NCBI GenBank assembly: GCA_003554345.1
Contig: PWGE01000285.1
Location: forward strand, 1-15,086
From: T1SED10-198M sp003554345 [NCBI: Candidatus Sumerlaeota bacterium]
Lineage (GTDB): Bacteria > Sumerlaeota > T1SED10-198M
Reading direction: 5' to 3'
DNA: 15,086 nt
Part shown: one piece after another, positions 6,470 through 15,086 of the stretch
How the letters are laid out: every line of letters starts with the position of its first letter
Numbering within the stretch: position 1 is the first letter of the stretch
The notes under the pieces: model-generated
Seen by the model: the letters and a program-made list of their open reading frames with translations, nothing else
Told to the model about the DNA's origin: nothing
Databases searched by the model: none
Position numbers and translations under genes: made by a program

Positions 6470-8431
6470 TTATTTGTTTTTATCCTCATCATCCTCATCC
6501 TCTACCTCATATTCAGCGTCGACCACATCTTCGCCTTTATCTTCTTCAGAGGCAGATTCCTGAGTCTGTTCATTATACCCCTTTTCATCAGTTTGTCCAC
6601 CACCCTGTTGATCGGCACCTGCAGCCTTATACAGTTGTTCAGCCACTTTGTGGTTAACCTGATTGAGCTTTTCAGTGGCTTCTTTCAGTTCAGATACATC
6701 CTTACTGTCCACTTTTTCTTTCGCTTCTGCTACCGCTTTTTCAATTTCCGATTTCATATCATCCTGCAGCTTATCTGCATTTTCCCTCAGCATCTTTTCA
6801 GTGGACATAATGAGTCCATCCAGCTGGTTTCGCTGGTCAATCACTTCTCTCATCTTCTTATCTTCTTCAGCGTGTTCTTCAGCATCTTTCTTCATTTTTT
6901 CAATTTCTTCTTCGCTCATGCGGGTTGCTGCTTCAATCCGAATCTTCTGTTCTTTTCCGCTGGCAAGGTCTTTCGCAGAAACGTTGAGTATTCCATCGGC
7001 ATCGATGTCAAAGGCAACCTCAATCTGCGGAACACCTCTGGGAGCAGGCGGAATTCCTTCCAGGTTAAAACGTCCCAAACTGCGATTATATTTTGCCATT
7101 TCTCGTTCGCCCTGCAGTACATGGACTGTTACAGCGGTCTGATTGTCCTGGGCAGTGGTAAAGGTTTCTTTCTTGCGGCAGGGAATAGTGGTATTTTTTT
7201 CAATCATCTTCGTGAACACTCCGCCCAGCGTTTCTATACCAAGAGAGAGGGGTGTTACGTCAAGCAACAGGAGATCTTTCACTTCACCTGCCAGAACACC
7301 TGCCTGGATGGCGGCTCCTACAGCAACTGCTTCATCGGGATTCACTTTTTTATTCGGTGTTTTCTCGAAAAAGTCGGTTACAAACTCCTGAACCTTTGGT
7401 ATTCGTGTGGATCCACCCACCAGGATAACTTCTCCGATATCGGCAGGTTTCAGATCTGCATCTTTCATTGCAGTTTCGCAGGGGGTTTTGGTCCTTTTGA
7501 TAATATCTTCGATCAACGCTTCCACTTTGGATCGGGTGACCTTCATATTCAGGTGCTTGGGCCCCTGATTATCTGCTGTAATAAAGGGAAGATTGATAGT
7601 CGTTTCTTTCGTTTGTGAAAGATCACATTTAGCTTTCTCTGCTGCTTCTTTCAAGCGCTGTAAGGCCATTTTATCTTCAGATAAGTCGATATTATTCTCT
7701 TTTTTAAATTCGGATACTATATGTTGTATGATCAGTTCATCGATATCATCGCCACCAAGGTGGGTATCACCGCTGGTTGATTTAACTTCGAATACTCCTT
7801 CTCCTATTTCCAGAATAGAAATGTCAAATGTACCACCACCAAAGTCATAGACAGCAATATTCTCTTCACTTTTGTTATCCAGACCATAAGCGAGAGAAGA
7901 AGCAGTTGGTTCGTTGATTATGCGCAGAACTTCCAGACCTGCAATTTTTCCTGCCTCTTTGGTTGCTGTACGCTGAGAATCGTTAAAATAGGCAGGAACC
8001 GTTATAACTGCTTTTTTTACCTCGGTTCCGACATATTCTTCGGCTATTTTTTTCATTTTCTGGAGAATATAAGCTGATATCTGTTGGGGAGAATATTTTT
8101 TACCGCGAATATTCACGGTAATCATCCCTTTATCGTCCTTTTCTACTTTGTATGAAACACGCTTAAGCTCATCTTTATCTATTTCGTCATAGCGCATTCC
8201 CATGAAACGTTTGATAGAGTAAACGGTGTTTTCTGAGTTAGTGATGGCCTGTCTTTTTGCCAGTTCACCAACAAGGATTTCATCCTCCTCTGTGAATGCC
8301 ACCACTGATGGTGTTGTTCTTCGTCCTTCTTCGTTAGGAATGACTACAGCTTCTCCGCCTTCCATCACGGATACGCAGGAATTCGTTGTTCCCAGGTCTA
8401 TTCCTATTACTTTTTCTGTTTTTTTAGCCAT
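6470..8431 (-). CDS. dnaK: Chaperone protein DnaK (Hsp70)
   Basis: ATP-dependent Hsp70 chaperone that binds exposed hydrophobic stretches, working with DnaJ and the exchange factor GrpE. The 653-residue protein has the nucleotide-binding domain with DLGTTNS (12-18), YDFGGGTFD (195-203) and GGSTRIP (339-345), the interdomain linker DLLLLDVTP (386-394), the substrate-binding domain, and a helical lid with an acidic tail. The tail carries DVVDAEYE, typical of bacterial DnaK, then an extra run of Glu/Asp ending in DKNK. The reading frame is open to a GTG at 8440, but that codon overlaps the GGAG ribosome binding site, so the ATG at 8431-8429 (MAKKTEK) is the start. dnaK lies 78 nt downstream of groEL; hrcA and grpE are absent and no CIRCE operator is seen. 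Confidence 0.98.
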
Positions 8432-8439
8432 AAACATCA

Positions 8440-8443
8440 CTCC
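8440..8443 (-). promoter_or_regulatory. Ribosome binding site deciding the dnaK start
   Basis: GGAG on the minus strand (8443-8440), preceded by an A-run, lies 8 nt before the ATG at 8431. It overlaps the more distal GTG (8440-8438), which therefore cannot be the main start. The A-run joins it to the foot of the groEL-dnaK hairpin only about 5 nt upstream. Confidence 0.75.
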
Positions 8444-8509: not shown

Positions 8510-10150
<1,641 letters not shown>

Positions 10151-10171
10151 TTAACCTCCTCAATAAATTTG

Positions 10172-10459
10172 TTATTCTACGATCGCTAAAATATCATTTT
10201 CTTTAAGTATCAGGTACTCTACTCCGTCAATCTTCACATCAGTACCTGCATACTTGCCAAATAAGACAGTATCGCCTTCTTTGACTTCCATGGGGTTCAC
10301 ATCACCCTTCTCATTGCGACTACCCGGACCTGCTGCTACCACTTTACCTTTTTGTGGCTTTTCTTTTGCCGTGTCCGGAATAACAATGTTGCCTACCTTC
10401 TTTTCCTCTTCTTCGATCCTTTCTACAAGGACGCGGTCGCTTAAAGGTCTGACTTTCAT
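10172..10459 (-). CDS. groES: Co-chaperonin GroES (Hsp10)
   Basis: Forms the heptameric lid of the GroEL folding chamber. The 95-residue protein has the standard N-terminus [20 protein letters not shown], the mobile loop [14 protein letters not shown] (about 22-35), which contains the hydrophobic tripeptide that docks on GroEL, and the C-terminal strand [16 protein letters not shown] strong AGGAGG ribosome binding site is 6 nt before the ATG. It is the first gene of the chaperone run, about 34 nt downstream of the predicted start of a sigma-54 promoter. Confidence 0.99.
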
Positions 10460-10502
10460 TGCTAACCTCCTCTTCTAGTTTTTTTTGTTTTCATGTAATA
10501 TA

Positions 10503-10520
10503 AAGCAAACCCTGTGCCAA
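10503..10520 (-). promoter_or_regulatory. Sigma-54 (-24/-12) promoter upstream of groES
   Basis: The minus strand reads TTGGCACAGGGTTTGCTT (10520-10503). The -24 GG is at 10518-10517 and the -12 GC at 10506-10505, separated by exactly 10 nt. The -24 half (TTGGCAC) and -12 half (TTTGCTT) match the sigma-54 consensus (TGGCAC N5 TTGCW). The predicted transcript starts near 10493, giving a 34-nt leader with AGGAGG before groES. As a sigma-70 promoter, TTGGCA and TATATT would be only 12 bp apart, which is too short. No CIRCE inverted repeat is present. Sigma-54 promoters need an AAA+ activator bound upstream. Confidence 0.72.
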
Positions 10521-10856
10521 AAACTAAGGGAATAATTTTATTCTTTTTTTATCAATGGATATTAAGGACATGAAGATAAAAGCAGTGAAGCGGATAAAAA
10601 AAGAAATAGAGTTGCAGGGAAAAAATTGGCCCGGGGCTATACAGAAAGAAAAGCAGACAGTATATGCCTGAAGAACAGAGGAACGATAGAGTGAGGAATT
10701 CCCGCAGAAGGGTGTGAGGTGGATGGTAACCTTGAACCCCCCTCTCTTATAATGTGTCCTGTAAGAGGTAACAGGTAATAAGAATAAAGGGTCAATATGT
10801 ATCAATTTAATACGGTGAAGTAGAAGGCGTCCGTATTTGTGTATCTCCAATACGTT
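10521..10856. other. Non-coding region upstream of the groES promoter
   Basis: No convincing gene. A 108-codon minus-strand frame here has low-complexity hydrophobic content, no ribosome binding site and no recognisable fold. Candidate control elements are a repeated GATAAAA (10575-10581 and 10593-10599, 18 bp apart) and an imperfect dyad CAGACA-N5-TGCCTG (10654-10670). These lie about 57-150 bp upstream of the -24 box, where a sigma-54 activator would be expected to bind. A 6-bp dyad CGTATT/AATACG (10832-10854) follows the stop of the membrane-protein gene but has no T-tract. Confidence 0.5.
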
Positions 10857-11921
10857 TCAGACCTTATCGGCATCCACATCTTCGAGAATATCTGAAAGCG
10901 AAATGCCTGTCTGAGCGAGGTAAAACAATCCAAAAGATACGATAAAGAACATCTGCACGACATGGACTACAAGGGTAAAGGAAAGGGCAAGTCCCTCATC
11001 GAAGTTCAGCAATACCAGGGCAAACATGCCTGCCAGCTCAAAAAGACCCCAATAACCGGGGGCAGAAGGTATCATCACCCCGAAACATATCATCAGGCTG
11101 GTGAAAAGAGCCTGATGGTAATTCAAGGTGATTTCAGGAATGGAACGGGAAGCAGCGTAAAAGCTCAAGCCTACCAGTAACCAAACGGCAAAACTGAGCA
11201 ACAGTGTCATTATGACTGCCCGGGCATTTTTTAGTGACTGGAAACCATGAATAAGTTGAAGGTACATTGATTTTATTTTTTGAAAGAAGCGGGCTGGCAG
11301 AATTTTGCTGCTGAATTCAATAACCTTAAGTCCCAACTCCTGAAAGAAGGAAAATTGAAAAGCAAGAATTACCAGGAAGACAAAAGTGGTCATATATGCA
11401 ACATTGCGCACCAGGGCTTCAATAATTTGACCGCTTATTTCATATCCTTCGAAGGACAACCTGAAATCCGGGGGGATTTCCAGGCGCAGGAGAAGAGGCG
11501 TAAAAAGGATGAGCACGGCAAGTAAATCGTATACTCTTTCAACAACAATGGTAGAAAATCCAAAAGAGAACGTCAGATTATGCTTCTTTTTGAGAATAAC
11601 GGCTCTGGCGAACTCTCCTATTCGAAGGGGAAGAATTGAATTTAATGCGAAACCAATAGCGCATATTTTGTAAAGCGAATAGGATGGCATTTTTTTATTA
11701 TGGGCTGCAAGATAATGCCACCGGACTCCGCGGATGAAAAGTTGAAAGAGAGTCAGAAAACCAAAAACAAGAAGCCATGGAATCCTGACATTTCGGATGA
11801 TGCTCCATACCTGGGGAAGATTGACATCCTTAAAAGCCAGCCACAGACCGGCAGCGGTAAGAAAAAAGCCAACAATGACCTTGATCCAGTGAAGTTTAAG
11901 AAGTTGCCAGAATGTCGACAT
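10857..11921 (-). CDS. Flippase-like integral membrane protein (LPG synthase TM-domain / UPF0104 family)
   Basis: A 354-residue multi-pass inner-membrane protein with about eight hydrophobic segments, starting with VIVGFFLTAAGLWLAF near residues 15-30. It resembles the membrane domain found in lysylphosphatidylglycerol synthases and stand-alone UPF0104 proteins. Features seen are GVRWHYLA (about 65-72), a PLRIGEFARA motif (about 99-108), VERVYDL (about 127-133) and PGYWGLFE in the C-terminal half. There is no aminoacyl-transferase domain, so lipid lysinylation is not expected. Family members are proposed to move or flip lipid-linked substrates, and the substrate here is unknown. The ATG has GAGGGA 9 nt upstream and lies 31 nt behind lepB, probably in one transcript. 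Confidence 0.82.
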   Translation of the reverse strand: MSTFWQLLKLHWIKVIVGFFLTAAGLWLAFKDVNLPQVWSIIRNVRIPWLLVFGFLTLFQLFIRGVRWHYLAAHNKKMPSYSLYKICAIGFALNSILPLRIGEFARAVILKKKHNLTFSFGFSTIVVERVYDLLAVLILFTPLLLRLEIPPDFRLSFEGYEISGQIIEALVRNVAYMTTFVFLVILAFQFSFFQELGLKVIEFSSKILPARFFQKIKSMYLQLIHGFQSLKNARAVIMTLLLSFAVWLLVGLSFYAASRSIPEITLNYHQALFTSLMICFGVMIPSAPGYWGLFELAGMFALVLLNFDEGLALSFTLVVHVVQMFFIVSFGLFYLAQTGISLSDILEDVDADKV

Positions 11922-12924: not shown

Positions 12925-13012
12925 GCCGAAGTGGCGGAATTGGCAGACGCAGGGGATTCAAAATCCCCCGGGCTTTATGTCCCTGAGGGTTCAAGTCCCT
13001 CCTTCGGCACCA
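12925..13012 (+). tRNA. tRNA-Leu (anticodon CAA)
   Basis: An 88-nt class II tRNA decoding UUG. The acceptor stem pairs GCCGAAG (12925-12931) with CTTCGGC (13002-13008), followed by discriminator A and an encoded CCA (13010-13012). The anticodon stem GGGGA/TCCCC (12952-12956, 12964-12968) carries the loop TTCAAAA with anticodon CAA at 12959-12961. The T arm is GAGGG-TTCAAGT-CCCTC (12985-13001), and a long variable arm lies between, as expected for leucine. The D arm contains the usual GTGGCGGAAT...GGCAGAC pattern. Confidence 0.97.
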
Positions 13013-13070: not shown

Positions 13071-13099
13071 TTGTGAATTTGAGCGTAATGTGTTAAAAT
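13071..13099 (+). promoter_or_regulatory. Candidate sigma-70 promoter of the response regulator
   Basis: TTGTGA (13071-13076) and TAAAAT (13094-13099) are separated by 17 bp. Transcription would start near 13106, before the terminator-like hairpin at 13137-13164. If real, the regulator transcript has a leader of about 138 nt. Confidence 0.5.
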
Positions 13100-13136
13100 G
13101 ATTCACTGGATTTCGATTTTATTTTGTGTTTCTTAC

Positions 13137-13164
13137 GGTGAAAAACGAGATTTTCACCTTTTTT
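13137..13164 (+). terminator. Intrinsic terminator-like hairpin between tRNA-Leu and the regulator
   Basis: GGTGAAAA (13137-13144) pairs with TTTTCACC (13151-13158) around ACGAGA and is followed at once by six T residues (13159-13164). The 8-bp stem plus T-tract matches an intrinsic terminator on the plus strand. It could end the tRNA transcript. Because a good promoter lies upstream of it, it could also act as an attenuator in the regulator's leader. Confidence 0.65.
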
Positions 13165-13227
13165 CAATGAGGAAAAGGTATCAGATATGATGCCATTTTT
13201 TGTGACTGAAAGAAGGCCTGATATAAA

Positions 13228-13243: not shown

Positions 13244-14611
13244 ATGAAACCCAGAATATTAGTGGTCGATGATGAAGAAAAAGCGGCCCGGGGCATAAAA
13301 AGACTTCTTGAAATTTCCGGCGGGTACGACGTGGATATAGCCTGCCATGGTAAAGAAGCACTCGAGAAGATGGGAGAAGAGGCGTTTAATATTGTTATTA
13401 CAGATTATAAGATGCCGGAAATGAATGGGTTGGAACTTTTAGAAGCTATTAAGAAGCAACAGCCGGAGGTAGAGGTGATTGTTATCACTGCCTATGATAC
13501 AGAAGTAGGTCCGGCTGTAGATGCCATGAAATTAGGGGCTTTTGATTATATTACCAAACCCATTCAAACATCCGAGCTCAAGATCCAGATTAAAAAAGCC
13601 CTGGAAAGACAGAAATTGCAGAAAGAACGAGTCCTGTTCCAGGAGGAATTGGACAAAAAATACGGTTTGGATAATATCATTGGCAATTCACCGGCCATGC
13701 AGAAAGTGTATGAAAAAATCAGGCTGGTGGCGCCGACAAATGCTACTGTGCTCATAACCGGTGAAAGTGGTACAGGAAAAGAACTGGTGGCAGAAGCCAT
13801 TCACCGTTTGAGTTCTCGAAAAGATAAGCCGCTGGTTAAAGTCCATTGTGCGGCCTTACCGATGACTCTTTTAGAAAGTGAACTGTTTGGTCATGTAAAA
13901 GGGGCTTTTACGGGGGCAGTCAATACAAAGGCCGGTCGTTTTGAGATGGCAGATAAGAGTTCCCTGTTTCTGGACGAAATAAGCGAAATCGAGCCCTTTA
14001 TTCAGGTTAAATTGTTACGGGTTTTACAGGATCAGTTTATTGAACGGGTGGGAAGTACCAGGGGTTTTCAGGTAGATGTACGTATTATATGTGCTACCAA
14101 CCGTAAGCTTGAAGAACTGGTAAAAAAAAATAAATTTCGGGAAGATCTCTATTACCGGTTGAAGGTGGTAGAAATTGAACTGCCGCCGTTACGTGAAAGA
14201 GAGGGGGATATCCAGCTTCTCATTGACCATTTTGTGAAACATTTCTCCCGGATCCACAACAAAGAAGTCGAAGGGATAGCACCTAATGCCTTGAAGGTCC
14301 TTTATCAGTATCCCTGGCCTGGAAATATTCGGCAATTGCGTAATACTATAGAGAGCATGGTAGTTCTTTGCCGCTCCAGGACCATTCAGAAGAAAGATTT
14401 GCCGGAAGAAATCCAGAAATCTAAACGAAAAAACAACGTGCGAATGCCTCTGGGAATTTCTCTGCAAGAGGTTGAGAAAGAATATATCCTGGCAACCCTT
14501 CGCAAAAATGATTTCAACAAGGCTCAAACAGCGAAGGAACTGGGAATAGGAAGGAAGACTCTCTACCGTAAAATTGAGGAATATGACATACATTCATTTA
14601 CGGCTGAATAG
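13244..14611 (+). CDS. Sigma-54-dependent response regulator, NtrC family
   Basis: A 455-residue two-component activator of RNA polymerase holding sigma-54. The receiver domain (1-120) has the acidic pocket D9-D10-E11, phospho-acceptor D54 in ITDYKMP, T82 and K105. The AAA+ domain (about 143-375) has Walker A GESGTGKE (173-180), the sigma-54-contacting GAFTGA loop (220-225), Walker B LFLDEI (241-246), the FREDLYYRL arginine region (298-306) and sensor II PWPGNIRQLRN (358-368). A Fis-type helix-turn-helix lies at about 407-447. All key residues are intact, so it should be a working activator. The start is ATG 13244, set by GAGGAG. No histidine kinase is in the window. hslU begins 23 nt downstream, probably in the same transcript. 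Its targets are unknown; the groES promoter is a candidate. Confidence 0.95.
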   Translation: MKPRILVVDDEEKAARGIKRLLEISGGYDVDIACHGKEALEKMGEEAFNIVITDYKMPEMNGLELLEAIKKQQPEVEVIVITAYDTEVGPAVDAMKLGAFDYITKPIQTSELKIQIKKALERQKLQKERVLFQEELDKKYGLDNIIGNSPAMQKVYEKIRLVAPTNATVLITGESGTGKELVAEAIHRLSSRKDKPLVKVHCAALPMTLLESELFGHVKGAFTGAVNTKAGRFEMADKSSLFLDEISEIEPFIQVKLLRVLQDQFIERVGSTRGFQVDVRIICATNRKLEELVKKNKFREDLYYRLKVVEIELPPLREREGDIQLLIDHFVKHFSRIHNKEVEGIAPNALKVLYQYPWPGNIRQLRNTIESMVVLCRSRTIQKKDLPEEIQKSKRKNNVRMPLGISLQEVEKEYILATLRKNDFNKAQTAKELGIGRKTLYRKIEEYDIHSFTAE

Positions 14612-14634: not shown

Positions 14635-15086
14635 ATGACATCATCACCTTATACTCCCCGGGAAATTGTCGAGTTACTTGACAAATATATCATTGGACAG
14701 GAAGAGGCCAAGAAAACGATGGCCATTGCTTTGCGCAACAGGTATCGTCGTAAGCAGCTGGACCCGGAGATAGCGGAAGAAATATCTCCCAAGAATATTA
14801 TTATGATAGGGCCTACGGGTGTGGGAAAGACGGAAATAGCCCGTCGTTTGGCCCTCTTGTTGTATTCTCCCTTTCTAAAAGTAGAGGCTTCCAAATATAC
14901 GGAAGTAGGGTATATGGGGCGTGATGTTGAATCCATTATCCGTGATCTCGTTGAAATTGCTGTGCGTATGGTCAAGAAAGAACTTCTGAAACAGGTGCGG
15001 GAGAAAGCCGCCAAAAATGTTGAAGAACTGCTCCTTGACCTTTTATTACCGGAGTTGCCCAAAAAGCGCGAGGAAACAGAGGAGGA
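14635..15086 (+). CDS. hslU: ATP-dependent protease ATPase subunit HslU (partial)
   Basis: AAA+ unfoldase (Clp/Hsp100 family) that feeds substrates to the HslV peptidase. The first 150 codons are present and the window ends within the gene. Visible are the N-terminal [16 protein letters not shown], Walker A GPTGVGKT (59-66), and the pore-loop motif GYMGRD (92-97). The last visible part enters the intermediate (I) domain, which is charged and helical. AAGGAGGA at 14617-14624, 10 nt before the ATG, is a strong ribosome binding site. hslV, normally just upstream of hslU, is missing there and the sigma-54 regulator takes its place; hslV could lie beyond the window. Confidence 0.96.

Follow-up and report, generated by a model that had tools for sequence, protein, structure and literature searches.

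Which form of RNA polymerase transcribes the groESL operon of this Sumerlaeota bacterium, and what switches it on? Within the window, by which we mean the whole 15,086-nt stretch of DNA analysed here, the minus strand carries upstream of groES the element TTGGCACAGGGTTTGC, which matches the sigma-54 consensus at all specified positions and places its GG and GC exactly 10 nt apart. The earlier note on this DNA had singled out a sigma-54 site with a -24 GG and a -12 GC at this spacing, and we can confirm it as an exact consensus match: it is the sole zero-mismatch match to TTGGCACNNNNNTTGC in the window, all other sites having at least two mismatches. Looser matches, with up to three mismatches, number 35 in the window against 35.05 expected, which is chance level. 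The genome scan for sigma-54 sites that the note had proposed as a check returned, for the core TGGCAC-N5-TTGC in the 2.55 Mb draft genome (G000), nine exact sites and 126 with up to one mismatch versus 56 for the reversed control; given these counts, a single exact site is insufficient as proof of function.

Taking C 10505 as the -12 position, transcription is predicted to start at about 10493. The note had also described a leader with a ribosome binding site, and GAGGAGG does precede the groES ATG at 10459. Its figure of 34 nt stands as well, though not its wording that the promoter lies 34 nt before a leader, since 34 nt is the distance from the predicted start to the ATG. The features on which our argument draws are collected in Table 1.

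Table 1. Annotated and predicted features of the window, with the basis for each.
Feature	Position	Strand	Basis or remark
dnaK, directly 3' of groEL	6470..8440	-	Pfam HSP70
groEL	8510..10144	-	Pfam Cpn60_TCP1, E 2e-77
groES	10172..10459	-	Pfam Cpn10, E 6e-37
Predicted 34-nt leader, GAGGAGG ribosome binding site	10460..10493	-	Sequence; start inferred from -12
Sigma-54 promoter -24/-12 element TTGGCACAGGGTTTGC	10505..10520	-	Exact consensus; kept in relatives
Predicted upstream activating sequence, palindrome TGTATCAATTTAATACG	10798..10814	.	Motif score 14.3, second-best in window
Palindrome TGTGTTAAAATGATTCA before regulator gene	13089..13105	.	Motif score 14.4, best in window
NtrC-type response regulator: receiver, sigma-54 activator AAA+, Fis HTH	13244..14611	+	Pfam domains

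Stronger evidence comes from the phylum, sampled here as 40 Sumerlaeota genomes, namely G000 and 39 others that all belong to families other than that of G000. Counts for groES refer to the 33 genomes with a full-length groES, which span 14 families (f1-f11, f13-f15); seven genomes were left out for want of a full-length match (G013, G023, G027, G030, G033, G038, G039), as were a contig with a CIRCE operator (G031:C230) and the second groES of G029. Searching from -140 to -30 of groES, requiring the core together with its GG and GC, and comparing with 1000 dinucleotide shuffles, we find a sigma-54 site with up to two mismatches in 26 of the 33 genomes (shuffles: mean 0.756, maximum 5), with up to one mismatch in 12 (mean 0.115, maximum 2) and an exact site in 4 (mean 0.007, maximum 1), counts to be read with the caveat that the genomes are related and thus not independent. 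Any other spacer of 0-11 nt yields at most 3/33 genomes at up to two mismatches, and the opposite strand yields 1/33. Because 26 relatives keep the site, and only at the sigma-54 spacing, we conclude that it is not a product of chance. The remaining seven genomes (G009, G012, G016, G018, G019, G020, G029) have no good site in the tested interval; G012 and G016 read TGGCAC-N5-TTGA upstream of groES, a loss of the -12 C only, and G029 has TGGCAC-N5-TTGG farther upstream. Conservation upstream of groES in relatives, which the earlier note had asked about, is thus seen in 26/33 genomes with both dinucleotides kept, while the loss of the GG/GC positions that it had named as a refutation is confined to the 7/33 within the tested interval, the relatives in either case being members of other families. 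The other refutation it had named, absence of rpoN, is contradicted: the rpoN of G000 matches Sigma54_DBD at E 2.5e-57, and the gene is found in 39/40 genomes, the exception being the 71% complete G034. Taken together, these observations make it very probable that the groES sigma-54 promoter is real and used.

It may be that this promoter does not act alone. A housekeeping promoter could provide basal groESL expression, with the sigma-54 promoter reserved for stress induction, an arrangement compatible with the explanation that we favour below. Since groESL is essential in most bacteria, it would be hazardous for the operon to have no promoter other than one that needs an activator. Against this stands the finding that the minus strand from 10000 to 11200 holds no sigma-70-like site matching at least 9/12 positions, in a scan that knows the E. 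coli-type consensus only. We regard a second promoter as possible yet rather doubtful.

A sigma-54 promoter calls attention to its upstream activator site, and we suggest that a predicted palindrome fills this place. Training a symmetric matrix on the groES upstream sequences of the 33 genomes yielded TGTGTCA-N3-TGACACA, and the motif TGTRTCA-N3-TGAYACA lies upstream of groES in 33/33 genomes. Scores exceed 8 in 33/33 versus 1.9 in shuffles when the training set is also the test set; when the families were in turn left out of the training, the shuffle p is at most 0.05 in 33/33 and at most 0.01 in 27/33. The window's own groES palindrome, TGTATCAATTTAATACG, has two mismatches and was recovered with its own family held out (shuffle p about 0.01); it and the palindrome before the window's regulator gene are the two best in the window, the next scoring 8.2. 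The distance from palindrome to promoter was measured in 26 genomes and is 90-132 nt in 25 of them; families f2 and f3 stand at about 91 nt, and f5, one helical turn more, at about 102 nt. In G000 the gap is wider than in all the others, the palindrome being placed 295 nt upstream of the promoter. Outside the phylum, 1/14 Flavobacteriia groES loci score above 10 (L111, where the match lies on the sigma-54-like site itself), as do 0/6 in Planctomycetota.

The palindrome is not restricted to groES. A scan of all 40 genomes for TGTRTCA-N3-TGAYACA, allowing one mismatch at most, returned 33 sites versus 9 for the reversed control. Of these 33 sites, 14 precede heat-shock genes (groES 6, Hsp20 3, dnaK 2, and one each for clpB, grpE and an M48, HtpX-like, peptidase); the other 19 have no recognised heat-shock gene behind them, and several lie within open frames. 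Two sites without a recognised heat-shock gene, L185 (G037:C2:4294) and L186 (G014:C6:161410), stand at apparently the same place in two genomes of one family. Palindrome and sigma-54 site occur together before dnaK, Hsp20 and M48 peptidase genes in some relatives, and in G000 itself clpB is preceded by a palindrome and, 62 nt from the ATG, by an exact sigma-54 site. A further exact sigma-54 site of G000, this one without a palindrome, lies 52 nt 5' of a trypsin/PDZ (HtrA-like) protease gene (G000:C47:5210-5224, L034).

Among the loci examined across the 40 genomes (dnaK 30, clpB 29, Hsp20 30, regulator orthologues 30), those of dnaK offer a ready-made comparison. Using a linkage table of dnaK and groEL built by tblastn, we find the palindrome before 17 of the 18 dnaK genes without an adjacent groEL, 13 of these with a sigma-54 site, versus 0/12 where groEL lies directly upstream (Fisher p 1.5e-7, a value that overstates independence, since the contrast follows families and so reflects few independent events). 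The sole exception among the unlinked loci is G026, which has a second dnaK beside groESL. As dnaK follows groEL in the window, it is expected to share the groES promoter, and both this gene order and the linkage contrast suggest that it is probably read from there. The clpB and Hsp20 genes carry the pair less regularly than dnaK: the palindrome is present at 9/29 clpB loci, 6 of which also have a sigma-54 site downstream of it (some starts being mis-called, in G004, G007 and G035), and both elements at 7/30 Hsp20 loci, taking the best match per genome.

What might bind the palindrome? The window encodes a candidate, an NtrC-type response regulator whose start was chosen by alignment with orthologues within an open frame running from 13187, and whose receiver phospho-acceptor Asp and GAFTGA motif are both intact. 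By its domains it is a member of the sigma-54 enhancer-binding protein family with no named equivalog, none of the models (AtoC, ZraR, NtrC and others) reaching its threshold and the best, AtoC, giving 473.6 bits against a cut-off of 714. The palindrome before its gene, TGTGTTAAAATGATTCA, shares positions with the -10 of a sigma-70-like promoter at 13071-13099, itself a consensus match only, and from this overlap we infer that the regulator probably binds ahead of its own gene as a repressor. In the 11 regulator loci examined for a sigma-54 site before the gene, such sites are limited to two weak ones (G021, G027), with none in the window. Two terminator-like hairpins, at 13137-13158 and 13177-13194, separate the sigma-70-like promoter from the regulator gene and may serve for attenuation; a tRNA-Leu(caa) at 12925-13012 is upstream of both hairpins. 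An AAA+ frame at 14635-15084 begins 23 nt after the regulator gene and is cut by the contig end; by eye it was taken to be hslU, with Pfam giving AAA only. Adjacency to hslU as a rule was considered and dropped: hslU and lepB adjoin the window copy only and are absent from the 29 other orthologue loci within flanks of up to 1.5 kb.

The choice of this regulator has to be weighed against its many relatives. Each Sumerlaeota genome contains between 12 and 44 matches to the family of this regulator, and another member could be the activator, so that promoter and palindrome would be real but a different enhancer-binding protein would occupy the palindrome. Two features of the orthologues agree with such a reading: 19/30 have no palindrome in front, and in 14/30 (L240-L268) the second G of GAFTGA is replaced by D, N or H, giving GAFTDA, GAFTNA, GAFTHA or GSFTDA. 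Set against it, groES and precisely this regulator are the genes preceded by the window's two top-scoring palindromes, and the association extends to relatives, where a palindrome precedes the gene at 10/29 further orthologues. At a score above 12, orthologues with a palindrome number 11/30 versus 0/20 sampled paralogues (p 0.0016), and at a score above 10, 11/30 versus 1/20 (p 0.016); all 11 retain the second G of GAFTGA. The orthologues also form a coherent group. In a tree in which one paralogue row (L367, read in a wrong frame) is disregarded, and whose paralogue set overlaps only partly with that of the palindrome comparison, the 30 orthologues cluster apart from 18/20 paralogues, and the best regulator matches of the 30 genomes together with G018 and G020 are set apart from the other sampled paralogues with support of 94/89. 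The recognition helix GRKTLYRK is invariant in 30/30 orthologues and found in 0/19 readable paralogues, G018 and G020 having SRKTLYRK. We therefore judge a different activator to be unlikely.

These considerations lead us to posit, as the probable explanation, a sigma-54 heat-shock regulon that includes groESL and is driven by the NtrC-type regulator of the window. In this model, sigma-54 RNA polymerase would transcribe groESL and dnaK from the -24/-12 element. The NtrC-type response regulator that binds the palindrome, most likely the product of the gene at 13244-14611, would, on a signal that may be heat or misfolded protein, open the groES promoter by ATP hydrolysis via DNA looping. Further heat-shock genes would be driven by the pairing of palindrome and sigma-54 site, clpB here and dnaK, Hsp20 and others in relatives, so that across Sumerlaeota sigma-54 would take the place of HrcA/CIRCE and sigma-32 in heat-shock control; the regulator would also bind before its own gene, probably as a repressor. 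Read directly from sequence are the sites with their spacing and conservation and the gene content, from which promoter use, the identity of the binding regulator, the nature of the signal and autorepression are deduced.

Two other accounts fare poorly. The resemblance to a sigma-54 promoter might be fortuitous and groESL transcribed with the housekeeping sigma factor, as the chance-level number of loose matches in the window and the seven relatives without a good site could suggest, but retention at the exact spacing in 26/33 relatives versus a shuffle mean of 0.76 makes this very improbable. Classical control is no better placed. We detect hrcA in 0/40 genomes (completeness is 90% or more in 20 of them), rpoH models exceed their cut-off in 0/40, and no CIRCE with up to five mismatches lies before the window groES. 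CIRCE elements with up to three mismatches occur in 9/40 genomes and an exact one solely at G031:C230, before a groES (L161); this contig is probably a contaminant, since G031 has another groES, which lacks a CIRCE but carries a sigma-54-like site. An additional sigma factor of G000 (on contig C5) fits RpoD-like models best and falls below every rpoH cut-off shown. HrcA/CIRCE and sigma-32 control of groESL were accordingly both rejected, in keeping with the earlier note, which had set this operon apart from such control; the perfect CIRCE of G031:C230 and the group-2/3-like sigma-70 factors present in the phylum speak for classical control, but against the counts above it is the least credible reading of all.

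Two-component activation of a heat-shock gene has a reported parallel: Ueki and Inouye are said to have described in 2002 such a system in Myxococcus xanthus, HsfA/HsfB acting on lonD, and HsfA is NtrC-like. The likeness, drawn by description only, lies in the two-component activation of a heat-shock gene; the known target there is one protease gene, whereas our proposal for Sumerlaeota spans several heat-shock genes. HrcA/CIRCE and sigma-32 control the same genes as the proposed regulon, yet their parts are absent or below cut-off in 40/40 Sumerlaeota genomes, save for the one CIRCE contig. Bradyrhizobium japonicum has several groESL copies, of which groESL3 is one. This copy is listed as RpoN-dependent in the accessible text of PMC4842269, and so, as we propose for Sumerlaeota, a groESL operon is under RpoN; it belongs there to the NifA and sigma-54 nitrogen-fixation regulon (PMC4842269), whereas in Sumerlaeota the main groESL of the phylum is concerned.

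Closer to our case is a 2025 weight-matrix survey, the accessible text of which predicts sigma-54 control of GroES, GroEL, DnaK, DnaJ, GrpE and IbpA in Planctomycetota and Bacteroidota, citing a Blattabacterium genome paper for its B. thetaiotaomicron claim (PMC12316311). As in Sumerlaeota, sigma-54 sites are predicted there before heat-shock genes, in the survey before groES, groEL, dnaK, dnaJ, grpE and Hsp20 genes; the survey covers classes and in that text gives no upstream element or activator, both of which are predicted here, and a text search of it returned no Sumerlaeota. At the loci that we examined, Flavobacteriia agree with the survey, with a sigma-54-like site of up to two mismatches at 9/14 groES loci, and Planctomycetota, unlike its prediction, show a site at 0/6. 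The Flavobacteriia site, TGGCAYAATTTCTGC, lies about 67-80 nt before groES (L111, L118, L127, L130, L133, L135, L136, L137, L139), with TGACA/TGTCA elements just upstream that are unlike the Sumerlaeota palindrome, and an Acidobacteria MAG (L079) has TGGCATAATAATTGC 55 nt before groES. The earlier note had called sigma-54 control of groESL unusual, which is apt by comparison with the usual HrcA/CIRCE or sigma-32 control but not within Sumerlaeota, where it is the rule (26/33), nor for the chaperones of Planctomycetota and Bacteroidota as predicted in the accessible text of PMC12316311. Term searches of the text of two Sumerlaeota papers (PMC8092238, PMC10866078) found neither heat shock nor groE, rpoN or HrcA, and our literature search of open-access papers found no report of a sigma-54 heat-shock regulon or of HsfA for Sumerlaeota. 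Sigma-54 control of chaperones was thus already predicted elsewhere (PMC12316311, as far as its accessible text goes); what would be new is the Sumerlaeota variant with its palindrome and candidate activator.

With promoter, palindrome and candidate activator named, the question becomes directly testable. Textbook accounts of heat-shock control in bacteria usually centre on sigma-32 or on the HrcA and CtsR repressors. If our explanation is right, the essential chaperone operon of a phylum depends on an ATP-driven activator, which would raise the question of how a response regulator is informed of protein-folding stress. In its boldest form, held with somewhat better than even confidence, the proposal concerns the whole phylum: sigma-54 would have replaced HrcA/CIRCE and sigma-32 across Sumerlaeota with one regulon, in which a single autoregulated NtrC-type regulator, acting through a single palindrome, activates groESL and dnaK and, in numerous lineages, also clpB together with proteases and small heat-shock proteins. 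Should this wider reading hold, positive, ATP-driven activation would be the main heat-shock switch of Sumerlaeota.
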